Assembly: GCF_000708205.1 (NCBI RefSeq)
Contig: NW_014575558.1
Location: 847,146-911,145 of the forward strand
From: Mixia osmundae IAM 14324
Taxonomy: Eukaryota; Basidiomycota; Mixiomycetes; Mixiales; Mixiaceae
DNA: 64,000 nt
Reading direction: 5' to 3'
The notes below the pieces were generated by a model that did not search any database, was not told the DNA's origin, and saw only the letters and a program-made list of their open reading frames with translations. The position numbers were made by a program, and so were the translations under genes. Shown here piece after piece: positions 1,246-50,018 of the stretch (positions within the stretch are counted from its first letter, which is position 1; every line of letters begins with the position of its first letter).

Positions 1246-2947
1246 TCAAGCTGCGGCACGGTAGCCATTGGGGTTCTTTGAGCTCCAATTCCAGAGGTTT
1301 CTGCAGCATTCGTCAAGTGGGATGTTGGCCTTGAAGCCAAGTTCCTTTTCAGCCAGGGTAGGGTCAGCTGTGAGATCAGGTACATCTCCGAGACTGGCTC
1401 TCGATGTCAGTCTAGTCTGGGTCAAGCATGTGACAGAACGCACCGGCGACCCTCAACAGTCGTCTTGAAATCGAAGCCCGAAGCCTTTCGCATCGCTTCG
1501 ACGATCTCAAGAACGCTATGTCAATCGTACATCACTTCAGCTCGATGTGGAGCATCGGAAACTTTGAGCGCACCTTGAGCCTTTGCCGCCGCCGAGGTTG
1601 TAGGCTTTGTACTTTCCTCCTGAGCCGCCAAAGCCGGATGCGCCTGCTTTCTTCGCAAACGTTTCCTCCTTGTCCAATGCTGCCAATGCAAGCACGTGTC
1701 CATCGCCTAGCGTGGTCACAGATAGATAATCACGGACGCAAGTACCATCGGCTACGCGCAACGAGAGTTCAGCTCCCTGGCTGACGGCCGGCAAGACAGA
1801 GGTGAACACGTACGCGTTGGGTAATCCTGACCGAATACCTTGAGGTCGTTGGGGAATCGACCGACTGCAATGGCCGCAAGAAGAGGCAAGAGATTGCCTG
1901 GCTTGCCGACCGGATCTTCTCCAATCAGACCGGAAGGGTGACAGCCAGCCGGGTTGAAGTAGCGCAAACCGATCGCACGCCATTTGTCGGGCTGCGAGTC
2001 GCAAAGATCCTTGATAATGAGCTCTGACATCATCTTTGTGCGACCGTAGCAAGACTCTGGGGCCAAAGGCGTCGATTCGGGGATGGGAATCGTCGTTGGT
2101 GCACCATAGACTGTTGCTGACGACGAGTAGACGAGATGATAGGCCTCGTAACGCGACATGACCTGCCGGCCTCGCACAGCTGAGCTCTGAGCAGTGAAGC
2201 TTAAGCCAGCTCGCCCACATCAAGCAAATTGATCGTCGCGGTGATATTGTTTTCGTAGTATTGAATGGGCTTCTCGCCCGACTCTCCCACTGCCTTGTGA
2301 GCGGCGACGTGGATGACGCCCCAAATCGGATCTTGGGCGTCCTTGTATTCTTTGAAGATCTTCTCGATATCTGACTTGTTGGTAATATCGCCCTTGAAGA
2401 CCTTGATCTCGCACTCTGACTTGTCTTGTGCGCTGGCGCCCGAGGGTAAGGCGTCCTGGGCGATCTGTGTGACTCGCTTCATCGCTTCCGGGTAGGAGTT
2501 GTGGAAGTTGTCGATCGTGCAGACGCGATACTTGCCCGTTAGCAGGCATGACAGGACGATGTGTGATCCTGAGCATCTTTGAGCATGAGCTTGGGTACCA
2601 ATGCGCCAGACTCACCTATATAGCCTGCGTGAGTGCAATGAGCTCTCGGTCAGCTATGCAGTAGTCAGTGTTTGTCCTTGCGCACCAGCACCACCGGTCT
2701 GTGAAGCAAAAGCGCGTCAGCTCTGTTAGGGCGCCAGCGCCACTGTGCAGGCGGCATGAGAGCTTGCAATACTCACCACTGTAGCATGCGGACGGTGACA
2801 GACAAGAGGTGTAGTTCAGCCAAAGAGGCGCGTAGCGTTGTCAAGGCGCAGAGTCGAAGGAGGCGAGCATACTCTCGTCAGCGCGGCCTTTAGCCTGTAT
2901 GGGGAAGCCAGCGCACCCAGGACCATCTGCTTGCTGCTCTTTGCCAT
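1246..2947 (-). CDS. GALE: UDP-glucose 4-epimerase (GalE/GAL10 epimerase type)
   Basis: Nine exons on the minus strand: 2917-2947, 2777-2778, 2686-2698, 2616-2624, 2219-2568, 1814-2162, 1574-1751, 1444-1515, 1246-1393. They total 1152 nt, 383 residues, which is normal for a single-domain epimerase. The product interconverts UDP-glucose and UDP-galactose in the cytosol with bound NAD. Visible motifs are the Rossmann loop TGGAGYIGSH, the catalytic S-S-A-T-V-Y-G with YGRTK (Tyr and Lys of the SDR site), NPAGCHPSG, and DGTCVRDY. The NAD loop is assembled from exons of 31, 2, 13 and 9 nt before the first long exon. Without the 2-nt exon the frame does not close and the Val of M-V-L-V-TGGAG is lost. 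There is no mutarotase domain, unlike yeast Gal10. The start at 2947 gives [11 protein letters not shown]. Confidence 0.92.
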
Positions 2948-3463: not shown

Positions 3464-6400
3464 ATGGCGGATTCGCTCAGGCTCAAAGACGCGTGCGAGC
3501 TACTGCTACCTGCATCGACTTCCTCGTCCACGTTGTCGAGCAACAAGGAAGAGGGCATCACAGTCGACAAGGTTGTGGCCAGTCTCAAAGAGCGCTTCCT
3601 GAACGATCAGACCTATCTCGCTGTCCATGATCGCGTCTTGCTCTCGCTCAATCCCTTCAAGATTTCATCAAACTCGGATGAATTGCATGATTATGTGCAA
3701 GACTACTTTGCTCTTGCACGAGATGATCCCATGCAGGCCTCGCCGACATCGCCCGTCATGTCTCGCTCGCTCAGCCTGTCGCCACATGCTTGGCAAATTG
3801 CTTCAAAGGCATACTATCACATGCGCCGCACTCAAATGGATCAGTCCATCGTCATCAGGTGAGTCGATCCCAAGCTTGCCAATACTGACCAGTATCTGAA
3901 GAGCATGTCGCAGTGGCATCGTCGGCTCGGGCAAGACCGAGAATCGTCGTTTGGTCCTGCGCATGCTCCTTGAAATGTCTTCAGCTCTGCCGGGGAAGAA
4001 AGGCTCGCGCCTATCCTCGCAGATCCCGGCAGCAGAATTCATCATGGAGTCGCTGGGACACGCTGCCATGCTCAACTCACCCAATGCATCGCGTTTCGGT
4101 CGCTATGTCGAATGCCAATTCAATCAAAAAGGACGCTTAGTCGGCTTCAAGGGTCTGGAGTACTATCTCGAGAAAGCGCGTGTCAGCTCGCCGACTCAAG
4201 GCGAACGCAATTTCCACATTTTTCATTATCTCTTGGCCGGTGCATCGCCTGCTGAACGTGTTTCGCTGCAGCTGGACCTCGCTGCGAATGGCGGCAAGTC
4301 GAGCTTCAGATACCTTGGATCAGCCATCACGATATCGTCCAACATTAGCCTGGCGCAACAAGAGCAGATGGACAGTCATCGCTTTGCTCAGCTCAAAGAG
4401 GCCTTCAAGATAGTTGGGCTATCCAATAAGGTGCTCCTGACCACTCTGGCCGTCCTTTCGGGCATTCTCCACCTTGGCAATCTCGAATTCGGCACAGACA
4501 AGGCACGTCAGGCGGATTCGGCTGTCATCACGAATATGGCTTGTCTCGAAGCGGCCGCACAACTGCTGGGTGTCAAGGCAGACTCACTTGAAGCCGCTCT
4601 GACGGCCAAGACGGTGATGATCGGAAAGGAAAGATGTACGTTTTTTCTCGATCCCGAAGCCGCTCGTCATCATACCGATCAGCTTGCTTCGAGTCTACAT
4701 GGCTTGCTCTTCAGCCAGATCAACGAGCTCATCAACCAGAAGCTCGCAACCGAAGAATTCGACACTTTCCTGGCCGTTCTCGACTTTCCTGGTCCGCAGA
4801 ACGCTGTCCATCATCGCGAAGGCAACGGACTGGACACGCTGGCTTTCAACCTCGCCAACGAGCGCATCCACCAGTTCTCGCAGGCTAATATTTTCGACAA
4901 ACAGAAAGACATGTTCTCCACCGAAGGCATCGATGGCCTTCCAAGCCTGCATACACCTGTCGCTCAGCCAAATGACGAGTCTATCAGAGTTCTCACGTAT
5001 CATCCCGGCGGTCTGGTACACATCATTGATGATCAGACGCAGCGTCGTCACAAAGCCAAGACGGACAAGACCCTCCTCGAAGCACTCGGTAAGCGTTGGG
5101 GTCAGCACGCCAATTTTGGCTACAACACGACTCAGTCGGGAGGAAGCTTCATGTGCACACATTGGCACGGCCAAGTGAGTCCATCCATCGCCCTTCAGTG
5201 AGCTTGCTGATGAAACGGATAGGTAACGTACAACATCGAAGGCTTTCTAGATGCTAATTCTGCCGAGTTGCCCATCGACTTTGTACTGCTGTTCGCTGGC
5301 ACATCGCAAGATAGTAAATCGGGAGGCTCGACGAATTCGCTCATTCGACATCTGTTCGCGACCGCTGTTGCAGCAACTGAATCGAAAACGATCGATGCTA
5401 TCGTCCCACAGCAGCCAGTCAAGCCGCTGCGCAAACCTTCTGTTCGACGCTCGCTGCCACAACTCGCGGGGACGACCACTAGTGATCGACCTGGTCAGCG
5501 CGAAAGTCTCGCTGAAAAGGACGTCTTCAAGCCATCTGCTGACCTGGCGGGACGCTGCATGCTCGGCGAATTCAATGCCTCTCTGAATCTCCTCCTCGAA
5601 ACACTCCAAGACACGCAAGTATGGTTCATACAATGCTTGAGGCCCAATGAGAGTCAGCAGAGCGACTCGGCCGACGCCAAGCTCATTCGTAGTCAAATTA
5701 GAAATATGGGAGTTGTCGAGATCATCAAACGACTCGAATATGACTGGTCGGTCAGCATCGAACTCAGAGAATGCTGGGAAAGATACGCTGCGACAGATCT
5801 GATTGTACCGCTCGCTGACGAAACGGCGAATCTCGTCTGGGCGGACAAGCTCAGAGCTGTGGCTACTCGCCACGACTGGAATGATCAGCAGATGAAAGTC
5901 GGTCGCACAAAGGTTTTCCTGGACTTCGATACATTTCGCCAATTTGAAGACATGCTTCGCAGTCAGGACGAAGAAGAACACAGATTTTACAAGGACAAGT
6001 ATGCAGCATGGAACGCACTTGGCTCATCTGATGCCATGCCGATTCTGTCGAATGATCCTTATGGTCCAAGTGCAAGCATGGCGAGTCTCAGTCTGTCAAC
6101 ATCGAAGCTCGAGCAGTACGATCTGAGCTCGTCCATGGCGCTCCCTTTGTTGCCTCGTCGCATTACACATGAAAAAGGTGGCAAGAACGCATCAAGTTAC
6201 GATGGGCTCGACGATGGCTACAAATTTGCATTCGGCGTGCGAGACGAAGAGGCCGGTCTCGGATCAGCACCAGGGAGTACATATAGCCTGTCTCAGCTTG
6301 CCAATGGACCAGATAAGTCTGACGAAAAGGCGCTGCTCGATTCGGCAGAGGCCGATTTGGCTGCCGAAGAGCTTCGCGACACGTCTTCCCGTAGAAGATG

Positions 6401-9400
6401 GATGATGATCGTCTGGACGCTTACATGGTGGTTGCCGAGTCCTCTTATCAAGCTCTTCTCCAAGCGTCTTCGCCGTCGCGATGTCCGCACAGCCTTTCGA
6501 GAGAAGATTGCCATCAACATGCTCATCTGGCTTCTCATGGGCATTGTCGTCTTTGTCGTCGCAATCATGGGCAATATCATTTGCCCCACTGAACATGTCT
6601 ACTCTGGATCCGAGCTCAATTCTCACTCGTTCATTTCCGCGGTCAACAACATGCTGGTAGCGATAAGAGGCGAAGTCTTCGATCTGAGCAGCTTTGCGCC
6701 TCGTCACTACCCGAGCATCGTACCTCTCTTGTCCGTGCAAAAGTACGGAGGCCTGGACGCATCGAACATTTTCCCAGTTCAGGTCAACGCGCTCTGTACA
6801 GGCTACAACGGGCCCATCAGTCCATTCGTCACACTCGACACGACCAACGTATCTGACGTCAATTCACATTACCATGACTTCAGAGCAGGCACAGATCTTT
6901 ATCAACCTGACTGGTACTATGAGCAGATGATCTACCTGCGCAGTAATTACAGACGGGGCTTCATGGGCTTCACGCCGGGATCGGTCGCAAAAATGGCTTC
7001 TACCGCTTCAACGGCAAACGTCGCGATCTATCGTGACTACGTCTATGACTTCACGAACTATGTGCTCAATGGCGGCGGAGGTCTCAAGACCCCAAATGGT
7101 ACTGTGGCTCCGTCTGACACTGATCGCCTCTTCATGCTGCCCGACATCGTGAGCCTGTTCCAGACCAACTCAGGACAGGATATCACAAACGCGCTGGATG
7201 CCATCAATGTCGATAGTGACGTAATGGACGCGCAAAAGGTCTGCATGCGCAATCTCTTCTTTATTGGCAAAGTCGACCATCGCAGCTCGCCGCAGTGCCA
7301 ATTCTCGCGCTATATCCTTCTTGTCTTCTCGGTCATCATGGTGGCAATCATTGGTTTCAAGTTTTTGGCTGCTCTCCAATTCGGTCGCTCTCGCGCTCCA
7401 GAAGATCACGACAAGTTCGTTATCATGCAAGTACCTTGCTACACAGAAGGCGAGGACTCTTTGCGAGCTTGCTTCGAATCGCTCGCTGCCACACGATATG
7501 ATGACAAGCGGAAGCTCATATTCGTCATCTGTGATGGCATGATTGTCGGCAGTGGTAACGATCGACCTACTCCGCGCATCGTGCTCGATATCCTTGGGAA
7601 CTCGTGTAAGGTCGACACTGAAGCGCTCAGCTTCCAGTCGCTCGGCGAAGGCAACAAGCAGCATAACATGGGAAAGGTCTACTCGGGTCTGTACGAGCAT
7701 GCTGGCCACGTCGTGCCATATATTGTTCTCGTCAAGGTCGGCAAACCCAATGAACGATCCCGTCCCGGAAACCGTGGCAAGCGTGATTCTCAGATGATAC
7801 TTATGCGCTTTCTAAACCGCGTCCACTTCGAAGCGCCTATGTCGCCTTGCGAGCTAGAGATCTTCCATCAGATCAAGAATGTGATCGGAGTCAACCCTGG
7901 CTTCTACGAGTTCTTGCTGGCTATCGACGCTGACACGACTGTCGATAAGCTCTGCGTCAATCGCTTTGTCTCGGCGATGTTGCACGACAAGAAGGTTATC
8001 GCCATGTGCGGCGAGACATCGTTGGCGAATGCGAAAAAGTCGTTCGTCACGACCATGCAAGTCTACGAATACTTCATCTCGCATCACATGGCAAAGGCAT
8101 TCGAGAGTCTCTTTGGTTCGGTCACATGTCTTCCCGGCTGCTTCTCGATGTATCGCCTGCGAACATTTGAGCACAAGCCCTTGTTCGTCAGCAACGAGCT
8201 CGTGAGCGCGTTTGGTGTCAATCGCGTTGATACTCTGCACACCAAGAACCTTCTTCACCTTGGCGAAGATCGCTACTTGACTACGATCATACTTACGAGC
8301 TTTCCCAGCATGAAGGTTTGTTGCGCCTGAACGGGCAGTCGTCCAGCTGACATGGTTGCAGACAACGTTCTGCAAGGACGCTTTTGCAAAGACACTCGCG
8401 CCTGAAGATTGGCCTGTCTTTCTCTCGCAGCGCCGTCGCTGGATCAATTCGACTATTCACAATCTTGCCGAACTGACGGCCGTCCAAGGCGGCCTTTGCG
8501 GCTTTTGTTGCTTCTCGATGCGATTCGTTGTCTTCATCGATCTCATCTCGACGCTGATTCAGCCGGTCTCCGTCGCTTACATCGTCTACGTCAGTCGCTC
8601 TTTGGTCTGAAAGATGCTTGAGCTGACATGCGTGCACAGCTGATCTATCTCGTCGCGTCCAAAGGCAACACAGTGCCTACAACGGCTCTTATCATGCTTG
8701 CTGCCATCTACGGTCTTCAAGCCGTTCTTCTTATCTCAAAGCGCGCCTTCGAGATGGTCGGCATGATGATCGTTTACATCATCGCTATTCCCGTCTTCTC
8801 GTTCATCCTGCCCATCATGTCGTTCTGGTCGATGGACGATTTTTCGTGGGGCAACACCCGTATCGTCATGGGCGAAAAGGGCAAACGGCTGGTCGTGCAC
8901 GACGAAGGTGTCTTCGACGCTGCCTCTATTCCTCTCAAACGGTGGGAGGAGTACGAGCACGAGCTTTGGGACAGAGTGAGTCTATCCCGCTCTGATTGGG
9001 AAGGCTCGCTGACGGATCATGCAGGGCTCGGCAGAGTCTCGTGACATGTACAAAGGCGATGGCTACACTTCACGCGAAGCATCGCTCTATGGCGGCGCGA
9101 GTCAGTACGGTATCCCGCGCTCGACGAGCAATCTCACTGGCTTCGATCACCAATCGTTCTATGGCGCACCTTCACTGCACAACGAACACATCCGCCAAAT
9201 TTCGTTTGATCAAGTCAGTCTCAATAGCCAAGTCCGACGTCCTGGCGTGATGTCAGGCTCGGTTGCGAGCGCTCTAGGCGCCATGTCCTTCTCCGGCGGC
9301 GTTCCAAGCCAGTACCAAATGGCAGACGACATTCGTGAATGCGAGTCTCTCCTTTCTACTCAGCCTTTTCTCAGTCTGACTTCTGCTGCAGTGCTCGCTA

Positions 9401-9525
9401 CTGCTGATCTCCAGACCATTACCAAACGCGGTATAAGGAAGGAGCTGGAAGCCAGATACGAAGCTGATCTGGAAGAACACAAGGCCTTTATCAATCTCGA
9501 AATTGAACGCGCACTCGGCTACTAG
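3464..9525 (+). CDS. Class V chitin synthase with N-terminal myosin-like motor
   Basis: Six exons: 3464-3858, 3914-5174, 5223-8315, 8362-8589, 8640-8975, 9025-9525; 1937 residues. It polymerises UDP-GlcNAc into chitin at the plasma membrane. Order: myosin-like head (about residues 1-750), cytochrome-b5-like region, transmembrane segments near 943-1010 and 1248, the GT2 catalytic domain (DADT near 1453, EDRYLT near 1566, QRRRW near 1606), a C-terminal membrane cluster, and a DEK-type C-terminal helix bundle from about 1872. The head looks enzymatically weakened. Its P-loop is GIVGSGKTE, switch I reads SPNASRFG, and switch II reads DFPGPQ where myosins have D-x-x-G-x-E. The start is the first in-frame ATG, after a long ATG-less stretch. 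A likely partner for membrane activation, the SKT5-type gene, lies 26 kb away. Confidence 0.95.

Positions 9526-48365: not shown

Positions 48366-50018
<1,653 letters not shown>

Follow-up and report, generated by a model that had tools for sequence, protein, structure and literature searches.

A predicted 2-nt exon in a run of microexons encoding the NAD loop of UDP-glucose 4-epimerase in Mixia osmundae

Our analysis indicates that the UDP-glucose 4-epimerase (GalE) gene of Mixia osmundae is intron-dense at its 5′ end, where internal microexons of 2, 13 and 9 nt very probably encode the end of the first β-strand and the NAD loop (V-TGGAGYIG). M. osmundae is a Pucciniomycotina fungus that parasitizes ferns. 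The splice sites, the reading frame, the conservation of the protein and the improbability of the arrangement by chance were computed, and from these we infer how the transcript is actually spliced, in which order, and that this happens constitutively. The gene occupies positions 2947-1246 on the minus strand of the window, i.e. the whole 64,000-nt stretch of DNA that was analysed. Its product is predicted to act as a UDP-glucose 4-epimerase. The whole spliced protein scored 336.4 bits against TIGR01179 (the NCBIfam equivalog for GalE), exceeding the cut-off of 262.3, and solved GalE structures were its top PDB matches. The two motifs expected of GalE, the GxxGxxG NAD motif and YxxxK, are present as G13-G14-A-G16-Y-I-G19 and Y174-G-R-T-K178, and columns G13, G16, G19, Y174 and K178 were invariant or nearly so in our alignment of homologs (A1). 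The short N-terminus is also typical of the family in this alignment. The predicted gene is laid out as follows, with slashes marking exon borders here and below.

2947-2917, minus strand: exon 1, coding part, 31 nt; 10 codons and the first base of the Val11 codon
2916-2779, minus strand: intron 1, 138 nt, phase 1; GTGCGC...CTACAG, donor score 4.3, acceptor score 3.7
2778-2777, minus strand: exon 2, 2 nt (TG); completes the Val11 codon G/TG
2776-2699, minus strand: intron 2, 78 nt, phase 0; GTGAGT...TTCACAG, donor score 5.8, acceptor score 3.7
2698-2686, minus strand: exon 3, 13 nt; T12, G13, G14, A15 and the first base of G16
2685-2625, minus strand: intron 3, 61 nt, phase 1; GTGCGC...ACGCAG
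2624-2616, minus strand: exon 4, 9 nt; remainder of G16, Y17, I18 and the first base of G19
2615-2569, minus strand: intron 4, 47 nt, phase 1; GTGAGT...GCTCAG
2568-2219, minus strand: exon 5, 350 nt
2218-2163, minus strand: intron 5, 56 nt, phase 0; GTGGGC...GGCAG, weak donor (1.7)
2162-1246, minus strand: exons 6-9, 349, 178, 72 and 148 nt; stop at 1246
1813-1752, 1573-1516 and 1443-1394, minus strand: introns 6-8

The nine exons (31, 2, 13, 9, 350, 349, 178, 72 and 148 nt) sum to 1152 nt in frame, as an earlier note on this DNA had proposed for the whole coding sequence, and give 383 aa with zero internal stops. GT-AG borders are found at 8/8 introns. Their lengths range from 47 to 138 nt; the first four measure 138, 78, 61 and 47 nt, intron 1 being the longest in the gene. 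Donors and acceptors lie exactly where that note had put them at the four intron borders of the microexon region, and its coordinates were exact on the minus strand. Its count of four tiny exons needs amending, however. The 31 nt cover no more than the coding portion of the first exon, whose upstream end must lie in a 5′ UTR (untranslated leader), so the internal microexons number three (2, 13 and 9 nt). Together these hold 24 nt, which specify T12-I18 in full, V11 in part and G19 by its first base. As an internal microexon (≤15 nt), exon 2 is flanked by a canonical acceptor and donor, CTACAG/TG/GTGAGT, and the predicted joint of exon 1, TG and exon 3 reads ...GTCCTGG·TG·ACCGGTGG... Intron 2 has the branch point GCTGAC 19 nt upstream of its acceptor, and intron 1 a modest branch-like GCTGAA 38 nt upstream of its AG. 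This long intron 1, with its weak and distant branch point, is the weak point of the microexon model. Further along the gene, intron 5 (2218-2163) lacks a good branch point besides having the weak donor GTGGGC, and intron 8 (1443-1394) has a weak acceptor, AGCCAG, right behind another AG.

All GT-AG chains leading from the ATG at 2947 to His21 were enumerated, with a minimum intron length of 38 nt, a maximum of five introns per chain and GC donors left out. TGGAGYIGSH was encoded by 14 of the 846 chains with an open frame and VLVTGGAGYIGSH by one, and the earlier claim that only this chain yields that sequence holds within the enumeration. The microexon chain also ranked first among the 846 by a 14-residue family profile (31.4; runner-up, 21.8). 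It was first again by summed donor and acceptor score (11.4), the next score being 7.5, at which the deposited chain discussed below tied with a chain skipping exon 4; this score charges an arbitrary 6 nats per intron and excludes branch point and length. When branch point, length and codons were added, the microexon chain stood 7.8 nats above the deposited one before the cost of the extra intron. The preferred model flips with the cost assumed for one extra intron, near 8 nats. Splice signals thus leave the two models close, and it is the protein that decides.

The influence of the intron cost was also seen with a gene finder that uses no protein information and can insert a 2-nt exon to complete a codon. 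With the cost set to 6, it returned the full nine-exon microexon model (8/8 introns identical), and at a cost of 8 the deposited chain with exons of 75, 13 and 9 nt. Zero exons were predicted in 2947-2569 at costs of 10 and 12, and two false introns were added further on at a cost of 4. The PWMs were trained on 27 introns chosen from 33 predicted in 15 genes in 14 selected regions of the window; these are predicted, not verified, introns, picked for a recognisable branch point and a length of ≤80 nt. Strands were assigned to the training regions from Pfam hits, from long ORFs or from the prediction. An initial self-trained gene finder, run with a lenient penalty on introns, was abandoned after producing two giant false genes; its iterated successor (52 introns) may have drifted to wrong strands, and the PWMs were rebuilt. 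The order of the donors was the same under both PWMs: intron 2, then intron 1, then the deposited donor, then GTGGTG. Seven of the 27 predicted training introns carry C at +3 (GTCAGT, GTCAGC), a base unusual at this donor position in fungi; GCTGAC is among their branch points.

With respect to the protein, a profile of 111 homologs gave 685.1 bits to the microexon model, 679.5 to the version without the valine and 674.2 to the deposited model; eight abnormal annotations had been removed before the profile was built, which slightly favours the microexon model. The profile comprised P0002-P0120 (119 sequences) minus P0010, P0014, P0020, P0024, P0035, P0036, P0107 and P0112, and P0001 was not part of it. 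Scores against TIGR01179 were 331.9 bits for the version without the valine and 329.3 for the deposited model, compared with the 336.4 of the microexon model. At residue 11, where the microexon chain restores a V, 116 homologs are ungapped and 114 of them have V, I or L. The strand-plus-loop motif was present in 108/119 aligned homologs. A GalE-like paralog in the same Mixia genome (L009, G000:C4:829500-833500) carries LILVTGGAGYLGSH uninterrupted within one open frame, so the valine is normal in the Mixia genome too. Outside this stretch, stops interrupt every frame of the paralog, which probably has introns there.

Chance was assessed with dinucleotide shuffles of a 168-nt core running from the donor of intron 1 to the 3′ end of intron 2. 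A protein as good as the observed one appeared in 158/3000 shuffles, and jointly with equally good splice sites in 0/3000. The arrangement AG/TN/GT was present in 3217 of 60,000 shuffles, none of which reached the observed sum of acceptor and donor scores. The window itself holds 89 instances of AG/TN/GT on both strands, and the only one with that score is CTACAG/TG/GTGAGT, which is not expected by chance. The string YAGTGGTGAGT as such is not enriched, just rare, occurring seven times in the 13.5 Mb genome (19 contigs, both strands), against 12 for a control pattern read backwards.

The main competitor, absent from the earlier note, is the deposited gene model. The best match of the spliced protein was P0001 (L969DRAFT_18118 of Mixia osmundae IAM 14324; 96% identity), which differs at the N-terminus only. 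There, exon 1 runs to 2873 and is followed by one 174-nt intron to 2698, with no 2-nt exon; a longer exon 1 replaces the 31+2 nt by way of this prolongation:

2917-2873, minus strand: 45-nt prolongation of exon 1 (15 codons; 44 of the 45 nt from intron 1); donor AGA/GTATGC at 2872, score 3.9

P0001 keeps the 13- and 9-nt exons, so the depositors already accept two microexons. That the annotators differ from the microexon model speaks for their chain, as do its tied second place of 846 by splice score (7.5 versus 11.4), the better branch point of its first intron (6.5 versus 3.7), its selection by the gene finder when an intron costs 8 and the use of GTATGC as donor by a second predicted intron in the window. 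Only 201/3000 shuffles produced an in-frame donor matching the deposited one in quality, so this model is not trivially chance either. Nevertheless, it places LTR where nearly all homologs have a hydrophobic stretch, here VLV, before TGG at the end of β-strand 1, and loses 10.9 profile bits (674.2 versus 685.1). It also leaves CTACAG/TG/GTGAGT, unique in the window at its score, as a coincidence, and with introns charged at 6 the gene finder favours the microexon model over it. We consider the deposited chain unlikely, be it as the main mRNA or as a minor isoform, the latter being a form in which it could exist.

The earlier note had raised a stwintron as its own alternative. In such a [D1,2] stwintron, the internal intron 2916-2779 would split the donor G/TGGTG of an external intron whose last base is 2699. 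This would preserve the frame, and the complex begins with GG (CTG/GGTGCGC), as [D1,2] stwintrons must (PMC5639578). The note was correct that a valine codon would be lost; this residue is conserved, and dropping it costs 5.6 profile bits. After removal of intron 1 the RNA reads CTGGTGGTGAGT, with the donors GTGGTG (−2.5) and GTGAGT (5.8) 3 nt apart. The external donor CTG/GTGGTG falls below the training minimum of 3.1, so that removal of the internal intron creates no consensus external donor, while a full-strength GTGAGT sits 3 nt downstream in the same intermediate. The microexon and stwintron readings would thus differ solely in the donor used, the stronger of which is predicted to yield the valine, and we regard the stwintron as very improbable. 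A zero-nucleotide recursive splice site was rejected, as AG does not stand directly before GT (the sequence is AG-TG-GT). An assembly error would make 2916-2699 one 218-nt intron, 2 nt having been lost from a true GTG that closed exon 1 or opened exon 3. A single intron is simpler, and the joint of exons 1 and 3 is short by exactly 2 nt. However, such an error needs a 2-nt loss at the exact spot together with a perfect TG exon by chance (0/60,000 shuffles), and several rust annotations break at the same codons; it seems to us scarcely credible.

With the microexon model in mind, we predict that each intron flanking the microexons would most likely be recognised by intron definition and that the two introns around exon 2 would be removed one after the other. 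U1 contacts the exonic donor bases −3 to −1. Its footprint on GTGAGT (where −3 to −1 is G/TG) would overlap the preceding acceptor AG, which makes simultaneous binding unlikely. Once intron 1 is gone, the last G of exon 1 would replace the acceptor G, so the context GTG/GTGAGT is the same and either order would work. Based on the better donor and branch point of intron 2, this intron may be removed before intron 1. The remark in the earlier note that 2 nt lie below the range of exon definition was a fair one, but the size is less surprising than it implied, plants having proven 1-nt exons. Skipping exon 2 alone or exon 3 alone shifts the frame, and skipping exon 4, exons 2+3 or exons 2+3+4 keeps it with loss of NAD-loop residues, so productive GalE would need all three microexons.

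With regard to relatives, eight named clusters from genera that we take to be rusts were available as protein annotations only (P0003, P0006, P0010, P0014, P0020, P0021, P0024 and P0036). Five of these GalE annotations (P0010, P0014, P0020, P0024 and P0036) are abnormal in the codons that lie in microexons in Mixia; the other three, two from Melampsora americana and one from Cronartium, are normal. P0010 (Melampsora larici-populina) has G in place of V before TGGAG. Unrelated sequence is joined directly to TGGAG in P0020 and to VTGGAG in P0014, and P0036 is scrambled further than the other abnormal annotations. P0024 (P. striiformis) reads TIL/GYIGSH, with five residues missing; this junction equals that of Mixia with exons 2+3 skipped (MVL/GYIGSH), so the architecture may be old. 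If GT-AG introns are assumed, P0010, P0020 and P0024 would fit an exon 1 that ends after the first base of the Val codon and a next exon that starts at the Thr codon; P0014 would neither support nor exclude Mixia-like exon borders. The motif was normal in 18/18 named clusters from Rhodotorula, Sporobolomyces, Rhodosporidiobolus, Leucosporidium, Microbotryum and Meredithblackwellia. If the 2-nt exon is confirmed, it would suggest that this locus is misannotated in Mixia and probably in several rusts as well.

Tentatively, and with somewhat less than even confidence, we propose that the 2-nt exon may be ancient, common to Mixia and the rusts, older than the split of the classes and hidden by annotation, and that the cluster could be a switch operated by skipping exons 2+3. 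Neither the 2-nt nor the 13-nt exon is in frame by itself, but the pair (15 nt) is, so the cluster could act in this way. If so, skipping both would give an in-frame GalE without the NAD loop, as in P0024. An annotation from Somion occarium (P0107) reads VTLVCSH and has lost TGGAGYIG, so mis-annotation of a small exon at this motif may extend beyond Pucciniomycotina. Viral contigs were searched for related DNA, and none was found.

Ultra-short exons have precedents. In plants, 1-nt exons with mis-annotated N-termini have been proven (PMC4674806, PMC8831610), and for that of APC11 sequential removal of the introns by intron definition was proposed (PMC4674806), an order of events that would also fit Mixia exon 2. 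The exons of plant APC11 and VPS55 resemble that of Mixia in being ultra-short, missed by annotation and replaced by a false N-terminus, and VPS55 shares with Mixia exon 2 a strong GTRAGT donor (PMC4674806, PMC8831610). In contrast, they are plant exons of 1 nt proven by cDNA (for APC11 also by mutated constructs), whereas the Mixia exon is fungal, 2 nt long and deduced from DNA. With 1-nt exons established in plants, the Mixia exon is not a new principle; we infer that it is an extreme fungal case of a known phenomenon. Among fungi, Dactylellina lipS has two 3-nt exons (PMC5639578), and Phanerochaete P450 genes contain exons as short as 6 bp (PMC1184071). Like Mixia GalE, these are fungal multi-intron genes with microexons; unlike theirs, the Mixia exon is 2 nt, shorter than a codon and part of a run of three. 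The ascomycete [D1,2] stwintrons (PMC12403724, PMC5639578) share with Mixia nearly back-to-back introns, a GG start and sequential removal, but in Mixia the donor is uninterrupted, GTGAGT lying 2 nt past the first acceptor, and those 2 nt would be coding. Zero-nucleotide recursive splice sites (PMC13149111) likewise present an acceptor and then a donor at once; Mixia differs from them in that 2 nt between AG and GT would be retained for the mRNA and in that its introns are short. A 2024 paper states that functional microexons had not previously been described in filamentous fungi (PMC11121469). No 2-nt exon in fungi, and no paper treating microexons together with UDP-glucose 4-epimerase, was found in the literature searched, a scope outside which most subscription papers lay.

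If confirmed, the Mixia exon would be smaller than the smallest fungal exon found in that literature (3 nt), shorter than a codon and located in the most conserved motif of a housekeeping enzyme. It would also offer a clean test of an intron-defining spliceosome facing an acceptor and a donor two bases apart. The window holds another NAD loop, TGITGQDG, in a gene for GDP-mannose 4,6-dehydratase (48631-50008, plus strand), and no intron is predicted in it; this enzyme shares its fold with GalE. Elsewhere in the window, positions 3464-9525 (plus strand) encode a chitin synthase with myosin motor, cytochrome b5-like and DEK C-terminal domains.
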